A stretch of DNA of 64,000 nucleotides from Roseibium sp. TrichSKD4 (GTDB lineage Bacteria > Pseudomonadota > Alphaproteobacteria > Rhizobiales > Stappiaceae), in the NCBI RefSeq assembly GCF_000148725.1, contig NZ_GL476307.1:1-64000 (forward strand), written 5' to 3'. The translations under genes and the position numbers were made by a program. Shown here piece by piece: positions 52,970 to 62,001 of this stretch. The notes below the pieces were generated by a model, which was not told the DNA's origin, did no database searches, and was given only the letters and a program-made list of their open reading frames with translations. Positions within the stretch are counted from its first letter, which is position 1. The number at the start of each line of letters is the position of its first letter.

Positions 52970-54178
52970 TCATGACAAATGCGAGTTTTGGACTTTGGGG
53001 CGTAGGCAAAGCCAGAACAGGATCCCGGCAACGGGAAGGGCGGCGTTGATCAGGCCCACGCCGAGGACGGGGTCTCCCAGACTGGCAACCAACAAGCTGC
53101 CGAGTATGCCACCGCCAAACTGCAAAAAGCCCATAACGGCTGATGCAGCACCTGCAATATGAGGAAAGTCTTGCATCGCCATGGTCAGTCCGGCTGGCAG
53201 AACAAAGGCGAGCGAAAAGGCAAACAGCATGACTGGAGCCATGACGCTGATCAGCGTTGGTGTGAGCGCCAACATGGAATAGCACATAGCCGCTGATGAA
53301 AGGCCAAATCCGACAAGACCAAAGGGGACCAGCGCGGTCGCATCCCGAGATTTCATCAATCTTGCTGTTGCCATGGTGCCGACTATGAAAGACCCGGATT
53401 GCAACATCATGGTCAAGCCAAAATCGGTTGGTGTGAGGCCGACTTTGTGGATCAGGATAAATGGTAAGGTGGAGGTCAGGGCGTAGAGATTGCCGAGTGC
53501 GAACCCCACCAGAAGGCTTGGGCGGAGAAAAGCTGGCGTGGTCAAAAGCGTCAGATAGTTTCGGGTGAGGACTTTCGGGTTGAGGTGGTGACGGCCCTGA
53601 TAGGCATTCGTCTCTCGTTGAAAGACTACGATTGAGAGCAACAGCCCCAATCCATAGACAATCATGCACCAGAACACTTCCCGCCAGCCAAAGGCTTCCA
53701 GAACAAGGCCGCTTATGGTTGGGGAAATGGCAGGGCCGAGGGCGAGCATCATGGCAATGGTGTTCATGATCCGGGCCGATGTTTGGCCAGTAAAGAGATC
53801 TCGGACCATTGCCCTTGAGACTGCAACCCCAATGGCGGACCCGATGCCCTGAAGGGTGCGAGCGATCAGCATCCAGGTGATATCCGGCGCGTAGGTCGCC
53901 AATATTGCGGACACAAGATAAAGGGTCAGAAAGGCGATGGTGACGGGCTTGCGCCCAAATGCATCTGTCATTGGGCCGCAGATTAACTGAGTGACGGCAA
54001 ATCCGAGGAAATAGGAGGTCAGCGTCAGCTTTATCATCGCTTCGCTGGTGCCGAATGCTTCAACGAGTGTTGGCATGGCCGGTGTGTAAAGCGCCATTGA
54101 GATCGGGCCAATGGCGACAAGGCCCGCACCAAGCAGCGCGGTACGCCGTTCACTCATAATGGGCGGAGAAGCGGTCAT
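52970..54178 (-). CDS. Bcr/CflA family drug-resistance MFS transporter
   Basis: 402 residues, ATG at 54178 (ATG at 54157 possible). Twelve helices; Bcr/CflA signatures MALYTPAMPTLVEAFGTSEAMIKLTLTSYFLGFAVTQL, GPMTDAFGRKPV (motif A), RTLQGIGSAIGVAVSRAMVRDLF. Proton-driven exporter of drugs such as sulfonamides, bicyclomycin or chloramphenicol, or of metabolites. Its position just before folP, the sulfonamide target gene, is suggestive but may be chance. Confidence 0.9.
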   Translation of the reverse strand: MTASPPIMSERRTALLGAGLVAIGPISMALYTPAMPTLVEAFGTSEAMIKLTLTSYFLGFAVTQLICGPMTDAFGRKPVTIAFLTLYLVSAILATYAPDITWMLIARTLQGIGSAIGVAVSRAMVRDLFTGQTSARIMNTIAMMLALGPAISPTISGLVLEAFGWREVFWCMIVYGLGLLLSIVVFQRETNAYQGRHHLNPKVLTRNYLTLLTTPAFLRPSLLVGFALGNLYALTSTLPFILIHKVGLTPTDFGLTMMLQSGSFIVGTMATARLMKSRDATALVPFGLVGFGLSSAAMCYSMLALTPTLISVMAPVMLFAFSLAFVLPAGLTMAMQDFPHIAGAASAVMGFLQFGGGILGSLLVASLGDPVLGVGLINAALPVAGILFWLCLRPKVQNSHLS

Positions 54179-54382
54179 AGGATCCAGACATATTCAGGAA
54201 TACCCGCCCCTTGAGGCTGGTTCTTGCAGCAAGCTATGGCGCTTGTGTTTAAAGGTCCAACCCTAAATTACGGGTACTCCCTAAGTAGTTCGTATAAATA
54301 CTCGGAATCTGTCCGGGTTTTCTAATGCAATAGGTTTTTTTAATAGTTTGTTCAGAAATGAGTAGAGTATTCGGGGGTTCAG

Positions 54383-55561
54383 ATGACTTTCATTCACAAG
54401 GCGCATGGGTGCGGCCAAAAACATAATGCTGGTCAGGCTGGACATTTCAAAAAAGCGCTTCAAGCGGGTGGCCAGGGTAATAATGGTGCCGCCGCCGCGG
54501 GTAAGGCCAATGCAGGCCGCGTCTATGGTGGAAATGCTGGAAACGTGAATGCCGGGCAGGCGTTTGGCGGGATTAACCCGAACACGAATGCAGGTTTGAC
54601 CAAGCTGGCCAATATCATCAATCAAGCGACAGGCGGCAAGATCAAGCTGGTTGAAGCGGGCGGCATTGACACGCGTGAAGGCGGCAGCCGGATTTACGTG
54701 AAAGACGGCAAGATCCAAAGTGTTCAGATCTGGGGCAACCAGGCGCTTTCCCAAAAGCTGACGCAAAAGCTTCAAGGCACAACAATCTATTCTGGCAACA
54801 ATATCCCACAGGATGATACGCCACTCGGCATGGTCCATAACGCAGGCCAAGGCAACTACGGCTCGGTTAGCGTTGTTGGCAGCAACAATGGCGGCGGTTG
54901 GGGCAAGCCGGTTCCACTTCCTGGTAAGCCGACTGTTTGTCCGATGCCGAAGCCAATGCCTGTTCCTTATAATGGCGGTGGCATGCAGGTTGCCCAAGGT
55001 GGTCAAGTCGCTGGTGCAGGTCATGTTCACGCAGGCGGAAATGTACTGGCTGGCGGTCACGTCCATGCTGCTCAGGGCGCAGGGCAAGCCGCTGGTGGAC
55101 ATGCAGGGCATGCGCATCACGCAGAAAAGAACGACGGCAACGTTGGTGGCATTCTCGGTGGTATCTTTGGTCTGAAGTCAGGCCTGCTGGGCGGACTTGC
55201 CAACCTGTTCTCGAAGAAGAGCGGTATTCTGGGAGCTGTTGGTGGTCTCGCTGCGCCGGTTCTGGGCATCTTCTCCAAGCTGGTCGGTCATGACGGCGCT
55301 CACAAGGCGGCCATGAACGGCGATCTGGGCGGTTGGCTGGTCAACACCTTTGACCACACAAGCCACTCCCATGCTCTTGGTGGAAACGAAGGTAATGGCA
55401 ATGGTGGCCTGCTCGGGATTACCAATATTGCCGGAACCCTCGGTCAGGAAGCTGGTCACATCCTTGGCTTGGACAAAGTGTTCGGCGATGCCAAGCAATA
55501 TGACGCACAAAATGGCACTGACTATGCCAAGGGCGGCGGGGAGCCAAAGCACTTTCTATAA
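54383..55561 (+). CDS. Orphan Gly/His/Asn-rich protein with glycine-zipper hydrophobic block
   Basis: 392 residues, ATG at 54383 (GGGGG upstream). No signal peptide and no family that I recognise. Order of parts: Gly/Ala/Asn-rich 1-70 with one Cys (HGCGQKHN); a compact region 71-140 with mixed sequence (GLTKLANIINQATGG, GGSRIYVKDGKIQSVQIWG, LTQKLQGTTIYSGN) that could fold; Pro-rich 172-198 (KPVPLPGKPTVCPMPKPMP); His/Gly/Ala-rich 212-248 with GHVHA twice and HAGHAHHAE; Gly-zipper hydrophobic 253-302 (GGILGGIFGLKSGLLGGL); a polar Gly/Asn C-terminal part. Codon use and base composition look like the neighbours, so it is probably not a recent arrival. Possibly a secreted, metal-binding or membrane-active protein; no function assigned. 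Confidence 0.7.
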   Translation: MTFIHKAHGCGQKHNAGQAGHFKKALQAGGQGNNGAAAAGKANAGRVYGGNAGNVNAGQAFGGINPNTNAGLTKLANIINQATGGKIKLVEAGGIDTREGGSRIYVKDGKIQSVQIWGNQALSQKLTQKLQGTTIYSGNNIPQDDTPLGMVHNAGQGNYGSVSVVGSNNGGGWGKPVPLPGKPTVCPMPKPMPVPYNGGGMQVAQGGQVAGAGHVHAGGNVLAGGHVHAAQGAGQAAGGHAGHAHHAEKNDGNVGGILGGIFGLKSGLLGGLANLFSKKSGILGAVGGLAAPVLGIFSKLVGHDGAHKAAMNGDLGGWLVNTFDHTSHSHALGGNEGNGNGGLLGITNIAGTLGQEAGHILGLDKVFGDAKQYDAQNGTDYAKGGGEPKHFL

Positions 55562-55635: not shown

Positions 55636-55670
55636 GCGCCATCTTGCTCCTGTGCAAGGTGGCGCTTTTC
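55636..55670 (+). terminator. Rho-independent terminator after the Gly/His-rich protein gene
   Basis: Twelve-pair stem GCGCCATCTTGC / GCAAGGTGGCGC with one G-T pair (55636-55647 with 55654-55665), six-base loop, followed by TTTTCGTTT. Confidence 0.85.
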
Positions 55671-55916: not shown

Positions 55917-57743
55917 ATGAAATTGCGTAATATCGCCATCATCGCGCACGTCGACCATGGCAAAACCACACTGATCGACGTTCTGCTGAAGCAGTCCGGC
56001 GCTTTCCGCGACAATCAGCGCACTGAAGAGCGCATGATGGATTCCAACGATATCGAGCGTGAGCGTGGGATCACGATCCTTGCCAAGGTCACTTCTCTTG
56101 TCTGGAACGATACACGCATCAACATCGTGGACACTCCGGGCCACGCCGATTTCGGCGGTGAGGTGGAGCGTATCCTCCACATGGTCGATGGCGTGATCCT
56201 TCTGGTTGACGCTGCGGAAGGTCCGATGCCGCAAACCAAGTTCGTGCTTGGCAAGGCGCTGAAGCTTGGTCTGAAGCCGATTGTCGCGATCAACAAGATC
56301 GACAAGCCGGAACAGCGCGCGGACGAAGTTCTGGACGAAGTGTTCGATCTGTTTGCCTCGCTGGATGCAAACGAAGACCAGCTGGATTTCCCGGTTCTTT
56401 ATGGCTCTGCCAAGCAGGAATGGATGGCGCTGGAGCCGGACGGACCGCAGGACAACATGAACCCGCTGTTTGACATGGTTCTGGACAAGGTCGCGCCACC
56501 GGAAGCCGAAGATGGCGAATTTACGCTGCTGGCGACCACTATTGAATCCGATCCGTTCCTGGGCCGCATTCTCACAGGCCGCGTTGTGTCCGGTACGGCT
56601 GTTCCGAACATGCCGATCAAGGCGCTCGACCGCGAAGGCAAGCTGGTTGAAAGTGGCCGTGTTTCAAAAATCCTTGCATTCCGCGGCCTTGAGCGCCAGC
56701 CGATTGAGCAAGGTGAAGCCGGTGATATCGTTGCAATTGCAGGCCTGACCAAGGCAACTGTGGCTGACACGCTCTGCTCGCCATCTGTGGCTGATCCGCT
56801 TCAGGCGCAGCCGATTGACCCGCCAACCCTTTCCATGACTTTCCGCGTCAATGACAGCCCGCTGGCGGGTACAGAAGGTTCCAAGGTTCAGTCCCGCGTT
56901 ATTCGCGAGCGCCTAATGAAGGAGGCGGAAGGCAACGTTGCCCTGCGCGTTGAAGATACCGACGAGCCGGATGCGTTCATCGTCTCCGGTCGCGGCGAAT
57001 TGCTGCTCGCCATCCTGATCGAAAACATGCGCCGTGAAGGCTTTGAGCTGGGCGTTGGCCGTCCGCGCGTCGTGTTCCAGTTTGACGAGGCTGGCAACCG
57101 TCTGGAGCCGATCGAAGAGGTTATCATCGATGTGGATGAAGAGTTCTCCGGTGCGGTGGTTCAAAAGCTGCAGGAGCGCAAAGCCGACCTTCTGGAAATG
57201 AAGCCGTCCGGTGGTGGCCGCACGCGTCTTGTGTTCCACGCCCCGACCCGTGGCCTGATCGGCTATCAGGCGGAACTAATGTCCGACACACGCGGCTCTG
57301 CGATCTTCAACCGCCTGTTCCATGATTATCAGCCGTATAAAGGCCCGATCCAGGGTCGCCACACCGGGGTTCTTTTGTCCAATGGCACCGGCGAAGCCGT
57401 GGCCTATGCGCTGTTCAACCTGGAAGATCGCGGCCCGATGATGATCGATCCGGGCACCAAGGTGTATCCGGGCATGATTATCGGCGAGCACACCCGGGGC
57501 AACGATCTGGAAGTGAACGTCCTAAAGGGCAAGCAGTTGACCAACATCCGCTCTGCCGGCAAGGATGATGCGGTGAAACTCACCACGCCGATCCGCCTGA
57601 CGCTGGAAGCAGCTCTCTCCTACATCGCTGACGATGAGCTGGTGGAAGTCACGCCGGACAGCATTCGCCTGCGCAAGGCCGAGCTTGACCCGCACGAGCG
57701 CAAGCGCGCCGAACGCGCCGCCAAGAAAGAAACCGCCGCCTAA
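55917..57743 (+). CDS. typA: Translational GTPase TypA/BipA
   Basis: 608 residues, ATG at 55917. GTPase domain with G1 AHVDHGKTT, G2 RERGITI, G3 DTPGHADF and G4 NKIDKP; then domain II, EF-G-like III and V and the TypA-specific C-terminal domain (LIGYQAELMSDTRGSAIFNRLFHDYQPYKG, GEAVAYALFNLEDRGPM). Ribosome-associated GTPase involved in 50S assembly and growth under stress or cold. A strong terminator follows. Confidence 0.96.
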   Translation: MKLRNIAIIAHVDHGKTTLIDVLLKQSGAFRDNQRTEERMMDSNDIERERGITILAKVTSLVWNDTRINIVDTPGHADFGGEVERILHMVDGVILLVDAAEGPMPQTKFVLGKALKLGLKPIVAINKIDKPEQRADEVLDEVFDLFASLDANEDQLDFPVLYGSAKQEWMALEPDGPQDNMNPLFDMVLDKVAPPEAEDGEFTLLATTIESDPFLGRILTGRVVSGTAVPNMPIKALDREGKLVESGRVSKILAFRGLERQPIEQGEAGDIVAIAGLTKATVADTLCSPSVADPLQAQPIDPPTLSMTFRVNDSPLAGTEGSKVQSRVIRERLMKEAEGNVALRVEDTDEPDAFIVSGRGELLLAILIENMRREGFELGVGRPRVVFQFDEAGNRLEPIEEVIIDVDEEFSGAVVQKLQERKADLLEMKPSGGGRTRLVFHAPTRGLIGYQAELMSDTRGSAIFNRLFHDYQPYKGPIQGRHTGVLLSNGTGEAVAYALFNLEDRGPMMIDPGTKVYPGMIIGEHTRGNDLEVNVLKGKQLTNIRSAGKDDAVKLTTPIRLTLEAALSYIADDELVEVTPDSIRLRKAELDPHERKRAERAAKKETAA

Positions 57744-57772: not shown

Positions 57773-57804
57773 AAAAACCCGGGTCATTGGCCCGGGTTTT
57801 TTAT
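57773..57804 (+). terminator. Rho-independent terminator after typA
   Basis: Stem AAAAACCCGGG / CCCGGGTTTTT (57773-57783 with 57791-57801) around a seven-base loop, followed by more T. Thirty bases after the typA stop. Confidence 0.9.
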
Positions 57805-57872
57805 TTTGGGGGCTTCGTCTCCATCCCTGAAAAGGCAGGGCTTCTATTCTAAGCCCTGCCTCATTGTATTTA

Positions 57873-59815
57873 TCATTCAGGTATTGGTGATCCTGGAACG
57901 GCCTCGAACGCGTCGGCCCCGTCGATTTCCGTAACGGTGTTAGTTGTTCCGGGGAGGATTTCAAACAACGGGTCGAAATCAACCATTGTTGAGGCAAGTT
58001 GTGTTAGCACACCGACATCACCTTCAACCGTTGCAGTTCCATCCTCGATCTGGGCTTCGAGGGTAATTTCTCCGGCCATCGTCCGTTCCAGATCTATACG
58101 ATTGATTGTAAGCGTCAGATCTGGGTTCTCTGCCAGATGCCCTTCAATGTTGGTAAGCGTTGCGTTCTCCAACTCAATTAGGAATTTCTCACCATTGTCG
58201 GGCGTGATCAGATTTATCGTGAAACGCATTCCTTCCGCTTTCCGGCTATCCATCCGAATTCCAAGGAAATTGAGGAAGAGCTCGGTGGACATGGCTCGTA
58301 TGGTGTCCGGAGAAGAAGACTTTGCTGTTGGGGCTGCAGAGATTCCAGAGCGTAGCTCGTAGGCCCCTGCGAGGTAGCTGTTACGGAGACCAGGGTTCTC
58401 TTGCTGATATCCAATCTGCTCATAGCAATCGGCCAAAAGGTCCCGCGCCTCCTGATTATTGGTCTCTGCCAAGCATAGCTTGTTCAAGATCTCTATCGCT
58501 GAAAGGTATTCACCAGCGTTATGAAGTTCCTGACCCTTGGCAATGATTGGGTCCGCGCCGCCCATCATTTCTACATAGAGAGGTGCCGAATCCGTGGGTG
58601 AGAGGGGCTTCAAGGTGGCTGGATTACAGTCCCAGAACCCAAGATAGCTTTGGATCACTCCGCGGCTGTTATGTTCAGGGGAGCCGTGATAGCCGCGGCA
58701 ATGCCATTGGTCCTGCAAGCTTTTCGGAAGCTGGTAGACGTTATGGATTTCGTTGATTGTCACACCTTGGTTGGCAAGGTCCAGCACTTGATTGTTCATG
58801 TGGGCATAAAGATCACGCTGTGCCCGCAGAATCTCCTGAACACGGTCATTTCCCCAACGTGGGAAGTGGTGAGAGGCGATAATGACCTCTGCCTCTGTCC
58901 CGAAACGGTAAAGCGCCTCGGAGATATATTTTGACCACAGCAAAGCGTCTCGAATGGGTGCGCCCCGCAGGGTGTAGATGTTGTGCAGAGTTGCGGTTAC
59001 ATTCTCCGCCATCCACAGGGCTTTCATGTCGGGGATGTAGGTATTCATCTCCGACGGGGCCTCGGTTCCCGTGGTGTTTTGGAAAATCATCCTCACGCCA
59101 TCGACTTAAAATTCTTCAATGGCGTCTTCTACAACCTTGGTCGGCGCTATGAGCCCTGGAGAGCCAAAAGAAACACGATGGCCCAGTCCTTGTCCGGCGA
59201 AGCCGTTGGGGTGGATGTCAAGTTGCTGTCCATATTGGTAGGACAGGCGACGGTTCATCGCATTACCCGCATACACGTTTTCCGAGATTGTGTATTGCAT
59301 GAAATCGCGCGGCGCGATGATCTCAACTTTATTGGCCCTTACATCTGCCTCATCAACAACCCCACGAACACCACCCCAGTGATCCGCATGAGAGTGTGAG
59401 TATATGACGGCTGTAACAGGCAGACCTTCGCCAACATGCTCTTGGAACAAGGCCCAAGCGGCTCGTGCAGTCTCAGTGCTCAGCAGTACATCAAACAGGA
59501 TCCAGCCTGACTTGCCGCGAACGATCGTCATCTGAGAGAGATCAAGACCACGCACCTGATAGATACCGGTAATAACTTCATAAAGACCGTAGTTTTGATT
59601 CAGCCGCGAGATGCGTTGAAGCGATGGGTGGATACTTGGCCAGTCCTTGTCTTCGTTAAAGAAATCAAAGCTTTTCATATCCCAAGCGATGTTTCCGGCA
59701 TCTGCCATGATCTGATCGTCGGGCATTTTTGCGATCAAACCTTTCTCATTTTCCTCGAAATCTCGGGTGTCAGAGAATGGCAAAGACTTACGAGCTTCTT
59801 CCAGTATGTTTATCC
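57873..59815 (-). pseudogene. Alkylsulfatase (SdsA/BDS1-like metallo-beta-lactamase) with internal stop and lost 5' end
   Basis: Homology to linear alkylsulfatases runs from about 59810 down to 57873: LPFSDTRDFEENEKGLIA, the binuclear zinc motif SHSHADHWGGV, HPNGFAG.. region, then ALWMAENVTATLHNIYTLRGA, IIASHHFPRWGNDRVQEIL and the C-terminal SCP2-like domain (FTINLITPDNGEKF ... TLTINRIDLERTMAGE). A TAA at 59103-59105 breaks the frame between VVEDAIEEF and VDGVRMIFQNT, with the frame unchanged on both sides. The 5' end, with start codon and any signal peptide, is missing: homology stops at the border of the IS1380-type element, and no remainder is seen on its other side. The gene would have hydrolysed SDS-like alkyl sulfates; it is very probably dead. 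Confidence 0.85.
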
Positions 59816-61469
59816 CGGATTTCCCAAGTAGTCAGCTGATTTAGCTTCTTCTATCCTATTTTTCTCTTTATATTACAGCGTGTTACTTGATGACGGAGGG
59901 CTGAAAAATGGCACACCCAACGGGTGCGGGTTCTGAGAGCGATTTTCGGCTGGATTTTGACCCTCGGGTGCGGTTGGAATTCCACGGTTCAAAGATCAGT
60001 TCTGATGGCGGTCTTCTGCTTTACCGGGAGCTTGATGACGCCCTTGGCCTTTTCGGCAAAGCGGTTCGGTTCCTTCGGGATACCCGCAAAGGTAAGAATG
60101 GCGTTCACACCTTGATGGGCCTGCTGCGCCAATCGATATTTGGTCGCCTTGCGGGCTATGAAGATGTGAATGATGCCGTGCGTCTGTCGCGTGACCCGGT
60201 AATGCGCCAGATTATCGGGGGCCGTGCCGTTGACACTCAGGCGGCATCCTCCTCCCAGATGGGCCGCTTTGAGACTGAGGTGCTCGCGACTGCCGCCAAC
60301 AGGGAAGCCTTGGCCGATATGCCCGGTCAATGGATTGATGCGGTGCATGGTCGCCAAGGACTGAACTACATCACCTTGGACATGGATAGCTCTGTCAGCC
60401 CCACCCATGGCGCTCAGGAGGGAACCGCATGGAACGGGCATTTCGGCTGCAACTGCTATCACCCATTGTTCATCTTCAATCAGTTTGGCCACTTGGAACG
60501 CTGTGCCCTGCGCAATGGCAGCGTCCACAGCGCGGATGACTGGAAGGCTCTTCTGATACCCGTCATTGCGCGCTATGCAGAGCGCGACATCATGCGCTTC
60601 TTTCGCGCTGATGCCGCCTTTGCCATTCCGGAACTTTACGAGACTTTAGAGGCTGAAGGGTACCGCTACGCCATCCGCCTCAAAAAGAACGCTGTGCTGG
60701 AAGAGAAGATCAGCCATCAGCTGACCCGCCCCGTGGGACGTCCCTCAAAGACAAAGATCAAGCGCTTCTATGAGGTTTTTGAGTATCAGGCTGCTTCATG
60801 GAGCAAGCCCCGTCAGGTGGTTGCCAAGATCGAATGGTATCCCGGTGATCTATTCCCTCGCGTGGGTTTTGTCGTCACCAACTTGCCGATGGAGCCGGAA
60901 TGGATCATCCGCTTCTACAATCAGCGCGGCACAGCCGAACAGCACATCAAAGAAGGCAAGAACGCCATCACTTGGACCCGCCTGTCCTGCAAGCGGTTCT
61001 GTGACAATGAGGTCCGGCTTCAGCTTCACGCATTGGCGTATAACCTTGGTGTCTTCCTGCAAGGGCTAGACCTCCCGGAAGAGGTCGCCGACTGGTCGCT
61101 GACAAGTATCCAGAGCCGCCTCATCAAAATCGGGGCAAAGGTCGTACGCCATGCGCGCAAAATCACGTTCCAACTGGCAGAGGTGGCTGTATCAGGCTAC
61201 GTCTTCGGACGAATCCTCGCCGCAATCCGCGCCCTCAAGCCCCCGCCGAGGCCTGCATGACGCTCCAAACAACGAAACCAACACAAATGCGGCTCCACAG
61301 CTGTGTCTTGTCGCAGCCCAAACGGGATAAAGTCCACGAAAAGCTCAAAAACCGCGCTTACGTAACCGTCAAAATCGATAATCGCCCCGACAACGCTGCC
61401 GTCAGAGTTGCAAACGTCCGTGAAAACGGTCAACCTCGTCGCAACACACAGTTACTTGGGAAATATCCG
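59816..61469 (+). mobile_element. IS1380-family insertion sequence
   Basis: About 1.65 kb, the usual size for IS1380 relatives. The single transposase gene lies inside. Imperfect terminal inverted repeats: left CGGATTTCCCAAGTA (59816-59830), right in reverse CGGATATTTCCCAAGTA (61453-61469), sharing TTTCCCAAGTA with a two-base shift. TATCC occurs just outside on the left (59811-59815) and at 61464-61468 near the right end, a possible five-base target duplication, but the two ends are then not symmetric. Exact borders are therefore uncertain by a few bases. The element has removed the 5' part of the alkylsulfatase gene. Confidence 0.75.
59908..61260 (+). CDS. IS1380-family DDE transposase
   Basis: 450 residues, ATG at 59908 with GGAGGG upstream. 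IS1380 signatures: LDFDPRVRLEFHGSKISSDGGLLLYRELDD near the start, SRDPVMRQIIGGRAVDTQAASSSQMGRFET, NYITLDMDSSVSPTHGAQEG (first Asp, 158 or 160), RADAAFAIPELYE (second Asp, 235) and FYNQRGTAEQHIKEGK (Glu 344 or 349). Full length and undamaged, so the element may still be active. Confidence 0.93.
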   Translation: MAHPTGAGSESDFRLDFDPRVRLEFHGSKISSDGGLLLYRELDDALGLFGKAVRFLRDTRKGKNGVHTLMGLLRQSIFGRLAGYEDVNDAVRLSRDPVMRQIIGGRAVDTQAASSSQMGRFETEVLATAANREALADMPGQWIDAVHGRQGLNYITLDMDSSVSPTHGAQEGTAWNGHFGCNCYHPLFIFNQFGHLERCALRNGSVHSADDWKALLIPVIARYAERDIMRFFRADAAFAIPELYETLEAEGYRYAIRLKKNAVLEEKISHQLTRPVGRPSKTKIKRFYEVFEYQAASWSKPRQVVAKIEWYPGDLFPRVGFVVTNLPMEPEWIIRFYNQRGTAEQHIKEGKNAITWTRLSCKRFCDNEVRLQLHALAYNLGVFLQGLDLPEEVADWSLTSIQSRLIKIGAKVVRHARKITFQLAEVAVSGYVFGRILAAIRALKPPPRPA

Positions 61470-61647
61470 CTTAGATTAAGCCCAGTTAGGGTGCAATCTG
61501 TGTTTTCACCAAATATAATACGCAATTTTATCGAGTATCATTTATTGAAGTTGGGCGCTTGAGTGTAGAGCCTTTTCTGTCATGAGGTTTACATTTGCGA
61601 CTTTGCTGCACCGTTTGTCGTTGAGTTTAATTGTGTTTCGTGATGAC

Positions 61648-61687
61648 GGTGAGTGCGGGTTTTAGAGGGTGAGTGCGGGTTTTAGAG
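61648..61687. repeat. 20-base tandem duplication
   Basis: GGTGAGTGCGGGTTTTAGAG twice in direct succession (61648-61667, 61668-61687) without mismatch. Recent duplication by slippage or repair; no sign of spacers, so not CRISPR. Confidence 0.85.
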
Positions 61688-61720
61688 GTGGAATGCAGTT
61701 GCCATCTCATCCGGTGAGCC

Positions 61721-61774
61721 ATCCCTGCGAATGCAGGGATCTCGTTTGTTTCAGGCTCCTGCCTGCGCAGGAGC
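61721..61774. repeat. REP-like pair of perfect hairpins
   Basis: ATCCCTGC-GAAT-GCAGGGAT (61721-61740) and GCTCCTGC-CTGC-GCAGGAGC (61755-61774), each with eight-base perfect arms and a four-base loop, 14 bases apart. The pairing of two short G/C hairpins with CTCGT between them is like the dispersed intergenic palindromes (REP/BIME type) seen in alphaproteobacteria. Confidence 0.65.
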
Positions 61775-62001
61775 GGCATTCTCCGGTTTGAGCGAGAACC
61801 TGATGATCATAGCTGGAATGGTGGCATCACGAGCCGGGAAACGGATGTTCGATTGTAAACTCTTCTGTTCACACCGCCCTATTGCGCCCATGCGCAAGGG
61901 GTTAATTTCCGGTAAACCTATGTTAAGGTTTGTTTGGAAAAATAAATGCGTGGGTGCCAGAAGGCGCTCCGCAGCTGACTGAAACCGGCCAGGAGGCCAA
62001 T

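Follow-up and report, generated by a model that had tools for sequence, protein, structure and literature searches.

Tgl-type transglutaminase cross-linking is known mainly from the spore coats of Bacillus, and alphaproteobacteria, unlike Bacillus, are not spore formers. Polymorphic toxins consist of a constant region, an exchangeable C-terminal domain and an adjacent immunity gene, and Cdz-like and class II double-glycine bacteriocins are accompanied by a peptidase-C39 ABC exporter in the genome. According to the accessible text of PMC6490927, assembly of Tgl itself requires that its substrates are assembled first, and these are then cross-linked by the enzyme; the Tgl mutants E115A, C116A and H200A have no detectable activity, and E187A keeps ~60%. 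Glycine zippers are described in bacteriocins, including the 84–86 aa proteins of the alphaproteobacterium Caulobacter (accessible text of PMC5380434), and in type VI and type VII secretion effectors (accessible text of PMC10240207 and PMC10434224).

We analysed a 392-residue protein encoded in a 64,000-nt stretch of Roseibium sp. TrichSKD4 DNA (contig NZ_GL476307.1, positions 1–64,000; hereafter the window) and compared it with these systems. With Caulobacter CdzC and CdzD it has in common a glycine zipper within a Gly-rich hydrophobic segment, but it is large and composed of several parts, no exporter of this kind or immunity gene is recognised alongside, and the genome of its ortholog carries no C39 exporter. 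It resembles polymorphic-toxin type modular proteins in that a common part is joined to different C termini in the two architectures seen, but it has neither a recognised immunity gene nor a known trafficking domain. The relation to Bacillus subtilis Tgl (PF20085; PDB 4p8i) is indirect: the Tgl domain, with its Glu-Cys pair kept, occurs in a Roseibium sediminis paralog that also has the module of the window protein and adds repeats and a GPNP linker, whereas the window protein itself has no TGL domain. The protein is an orphan to which none of the family libraries searched gave a match, and its connection to a transglutaminase was unexpected.

The gene (54383–55561, + strand) starts with ATG and is preceded at a distance of 5 nt by a GGGGG ribosome-binding-like site (54373–54377, +). 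It is a real gene, because dN/dS (NG86) against the R. sediminis ortholog is 0.089 overall, an approximate value given an overall dS of 1.8 near saturation, because the open reading frame extends over 392 codons and because a strong intrinsic terminator follows (55636–55665, +; a 12-pair stem and then T-rich sequence). Purifying selection is strong on the module and the zipper: approximate NG86 ratios for the individual parts are 0.050 for the module, 0.059 for residues 252–302 and 0.35 for the low-complexity N terminus; in the His/Gly part and the tail dS is saturated and the ratio undefined. Codon use is ordinary, with 34 of 46 long non-overlapping ORFs of the window (a set that includes the gene) scoring lower, and the GC content of 56.3% is close to the 55.3% of the window. 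A stand-alone gene with a strong terminator and chromosome-like codon use is what an earlier, sequence-only reading had proposed, and these results bear it out. The same reading had also assigned the gene its own promoter region. A scan of the upstream sequence found no + strand consensus site and one site on the minus strand (1.2 expected); since this sole match lies on the minus strand, that part of the claim is left with the divergent upstream gene and the conserved ribosome-binding site and start region, where GGGGGTTCAG has the same letters in the ortholog, the start codon of which appears to be GTG.

The protein falls into compositionally distinct parts. A Gly/Asn/Ala-rich low-complexity N terminus (residues 1–64; 54383–54574, +), the least constrained part with a defined ratio, is followed by a conserved module (residues 65–170; 54575–54892, +) with a predicted helix-strand-strand-strand-helix core and by a Pro-rich linker (residues 171–200; 54893–54982, +); all 14 prolines of the whole protein are retained in the ortholog. 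The Gly/His stretch (residues 201–251; 54983–55135, +) contains GHVHA at residues 213–217 and 225–229 and has 26 of 47 aligned residues identical to the ortholog. It leads into the hydrophobic glycine-zipper segment (residues 252–302; 55136–55288, +), predicted with low confidence to be helical, and a conserved tail (residues 303–392; 55289–55558, +) with 78 of 90 residues identical and an HxxHxH motif at 325–330. The five parts noted earlier, the two GHVHA copies and the His-rich stretch are all present; the foldable region, placed earlier at residues 71–140, does coincide with conserved sequence, but it is longer and spans approximately residues 66–170. Overall, the protein contains 22.4% Gly, 5.1% His, 25 Lys, 3 Arg and 22 Gln. 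K/(K+R) is 0.89. The 45 other window ORFs have a median of 0.39 and do not exceed 0.63, and the ratio amounts to 0.77 in the R. sediminis ortholog and 0.65 in the paralog. The lack of a signal peptide is likewise in line with the earlier claim: the highest 19-residue Kyte-Doolittle mean for windows starting at residues 1–25 is −0.34, and none is evident by eye on the window protein or the paralog.

In the zipper, glycines G255, G259, G263, G267 and G271 follow each other at four-residue spacing, and all five are retained in the ortholog; a Ser-Lys-Lys-Ser turn separates them from a second hydrophobic stretch, and changes in the segment are mostly exchanges among Ile, Leu, Val and Phe. Runs of at least five zipper glycines were obtained in 758 of 20,000 shuffles of the segment and in 763 of 5,000 shuffles of the whole protein. 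Because shuffling reaches five or more this often, amino-acid composition can account for the GxxxG register, which is, taken alone, not remarkable: the glycine-zipper helix described earlier is there and is kept in the ortholog, its register being attainable from composition.

Profile searches against protein families, proposed earlier as a check, reached no curated Pfam or NCBIfam cut-off and agree with the initial description of an orphan without a recognised family. Pfam yielded no family up to E 10, and hence neither TGL (PF20085) nor a delivery domain, and PHROGs and PADLOC yielded nothing up to E 1. The single NCBIfam match was TIGR03952 (E 0.018; 14.1 bits against a cut-off of 208.1), a metzincin metallopeptidase family. 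The metzincin zinc motif is HExxHxxGxxH with three His ligands; QEAGHILGLDK (residues 355–365; window 55445–55477) looks like a degenerate version of it, but carries one of the three zinc-ligand His, and this His is Tyr in the ortholog, so that we rejected a metallopeptidase assignment. A sequence search of solved structures found nothing useful (best E 0.45). Structure prediction, the second proposed check, was poor for the full chain (pLDDT 34.5) and moderate for the module modelled alone (56.9, with core blocks at 73–77); the helix-strand-strand-strand-helix order agrees between both models, and a fold-match search gave no usable match.

The gene is lineage-restricted and was found in two related bacteria only. 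In a collection of species genomes, a scan with short exact patterns, which detects close relatives only, confirmed one of 73 candidate stretches, an ortholog in R. sediminis with 78% identity (299 of 385 aligned residues). This is the level of the faster-changing neighbours (MFS 78%, folP and folK 77%) and below that of TypA and ArgG (92%), and the slot is syntenic, with the gene located between the divergent MFS transporter gene (52970–54178, −) and typA/bipA (55917–57743, +) in both the window and R. sediminis. The whole-protein search found R. sediminis only among 87 family genomes, and the module profile found it alone in 397 genomes of the order, 385 of the class and 398 of the phylum, sets that overlap and each include R. 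sediminis as their centre. TypA is present in 86 of the 87 family genomes. We obtained 30 typA loci, from R. sediminis and from 29 of the 85 other Stappiaceae in which the locus was found; in all 29 the slot has no match to the window protein (tblastn, E 0.001), and in the same 29 an MFS gene lies within 1.5 kb of typA. The survey of homologues and neighbours suggested earlier returned one ortholog, in the same slot. The phylogeny of the MFS neighbour, which evolves fast, places the window and R. sediminis together (100/98), which is consistent with one gain; they are not grouped in the TypA tree. Whatever its function, the gene offers a clear example of one that is confined to a lineage, occupies a fixed slot and is under strong purifying selection.

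The window protein also detects a second locus in R. sediminis (E 6.8e-40, residues 50–205 matched), and in that genome the module profile finds two loci only, this one and that of the ortholog, which are located on different contigs. The paralog (L003 730–2871, equivalent to L023 1609–3750) is a 713-residue ORF with an uncertain true start. Its layout follows the same order as that of the window protein: a low-complexity part, here Gly/Asn/Gln-rich with seven SAFV-type repeats, a module 70% identical to that of the window protein, a Pro-rich linker, here a long (GPNP)n, and a C terminus of its own. The latter is PF20085, the Bacillus Tgl-type transglutaminase (E 3.1e-18), with a score of 66.4 bits where the cut-off is 23.7. 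It aligns to the solved Bacillus Tgl at Glu115-Cys116 with the active-site pair kept, as it is in four other Stappiaceae TGL proteins that were aligned out of nine found. At the presumed counterpart of Glu187, in a very weak segment aligned to 7c9j, the paralog has Trp, and the His200 counterpart could not be placed, a Leu beside a His occupying the position where the four other TGL proteins have His. Activity of the domain is plausible, as judged from these residues. TGL is uncommon: it occurs in 10 of 87 family genomes and, in the class sample, in 2 of 367, R. sediminis included. In the nine other TGL-bearing Stappiaceae among the same 87 genomes, nothing matched the window protein (E 0.001). 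Enzyme and scaffold are unpaired at these other TGL loci, because we saw no ORF within ~1.5 kb of any of the nine that was Gly-rich (Gly >16%), was 60 aa or longer and had no fewer Lys than Arg. A divergent gene that reads as L,D-transpeptidase-like adjoins the paralog.

Since the foldable region is common to the transglutaminase paralog, the explanation that we favour shifts away from the one first proposed: the link of module ~66–170 to a transglutaminase is a hint that the protein is part of a cross-linked structure, not a toxin. We tentatively propose, as a possibility, a lineage-specific, modular structural protein that assembles itself into a scaffold and has a cross-linking partner. The module would serve as a common assembly or targeting domain, and the Gly-zipper segment together with the His-rich stretches would drive self-association, perhaps tuned by metal or pH and possibly at the membrane or cell surface. 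The transglutaminase paralog would join the same assembly through the copy of the module that it carries and might weld it through Gln-Lys isopeptide bonds, by analogy to Tgl on the Bacillus spore coat; such a pair might be exported, act in partnership and be active. In favour of this proposal are (i) the conserved module, which a Pro-rich linker connects to a Gly-zipper segment and tail that are conserved as well, (ii) the same module in a paralog ending in a Tgl-type domain, (iii) the Gly-rich low-complexity sequence, the large excess of Lys over Arg, the 22 Gln and the purifying selection on module and zipper, and (iv) the order of events known for Tgl, in which assembly precedes cross-linking. 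Against it, genomic linkage is missing, with separate contigs and the paralog seen in R. sediminis, the one of the two genomes that was searched, and Lys (14 of 25) and Gln (14 of 22) are conserved below the protein average, so that no fixed cross-linking sites are visible. The Glu187 counterpart seems lost and the His200 counterpart is unplaced; no Gly-rich partner ORF was seen near the other TGL loci and no export signal in the sequences; high Lys and low Arg would equally fit a membrane-active protein, and the full-length fold model is poor. That the undescribed ~105-residue module itself recruits both the Gly-zipper scaffold and the Tgl-type transglutaminase to one covalently cross-linked, self-assembling structure appears improbable on present evidence. 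If the scaffold reading is right, Tgl-type cross-linking would have an independent use in an alphaproteobacterium, with scaffold and enzyme relying on one docking module.

The two-part architecture could also be that of a modular secreted effector, in which the constant half (low-complexity part, module and linker) delivers and a variable C-terminal tip acts, as a transglutaminase in the case of the paralog and by inserting a Gly-zipper segment into a membrane in the case of the window protein. We consider this a leading alternative, though an unlikely one. A common part with different C termini, known in two architectures only, the conserved hydrophobic segment and the precedents for Gly zippers in bacteriocins and in type VI and VII effectors are in agreement with it. 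However, no immunity-like gene is recognised alongside, the neighbours being MFS and typA with only small, chance-like ORFs in between among those of at least 25 aa, and no immunity gene was recognised among the ORFs of at least 100 aa surrounding the paralog. The window protein furthermore lacks a delivery-domain family, and its C-terminal half is conserved between orthologs, unlike fast-changing toxin tips.

Of similarly doubtful standing is the view that the protein is exported as part of a surface matrix or appendage and has nothing to do with cross-linking, with the module as an old duplicated domain for secretion or cell-wall binding. Module conservation, the linker architecture and the L,D-transpeptidase-like gene read beside the paralog would suit it, but no wall-binding family is recognised and no usable fold match is available. 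That the protein is not exported and instead forms condensates or granules inside the cell, as a His-rich protein of metal or stress physiology, we rate as less probable still. This would account for the retention of 16 of 20 His and of HxxHxH, for the missing N-terminal hydrophobic stretch and for four Stappiaceae TGL proteins (L009, L010, L014 and L016 of nine) that by eye have no evident signal peptide; yet the His content lies below the highest value of other window ORFs (6.2%), the neighbours are not metal genes, and the transglutaminase relative is left unexplained. The pore-former or bacteriocin leaning of the sequence-only reading, specified as a surface-retained, Cdz-like contact-dependent bacteriocin, draws on the zipper in the hydrophobic segment, the Gly-rich composition and the alphaproteobacterial precedent, but is very improbable given the size of 392 aa, a highest 19-residue hydropathy of 1.73 that is borderline for membrane insertion, the lack of a double-glycine leader pattern when the N terminus is read by eye, the lack of such an exporter gene among the scanned neighbours and of a plausible immunity ORF between the gene and its neighbours at this locus, and the absence of Peptidase_C39, the one family covered by the genome search for export systems, from the R. 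sediminis genome (0 of 1), the same search having detected the family in 8 of 14 control genomes, that of Caulobacter vibrioides included.

Some further features were observed in the two genomes. R. sediminis encodes another orphan (L004 1303–1806; 167 aa) with His-rich, Pro/Glu/Lys and Gly-zipper parts, whose matches among the 86 other Stappiaceae genomes are weak and confined to 6 of them. Positions 57803–61900 of the window have no counterpart in the R. sediminis locus L001 (blastn, E 1e-5). An alkyl-sulfatase-like gene with Lactamase_B, Alkyl_sulf_dimr and Alkyl_sulf_C domains (57873–59783, −) is split into two ORFs by a same-frame stop at 59106–59108 and is probably a pseudogene, and a DDE_Tnp_1_4 transposase gene (59908–61260, +) adjoins it.
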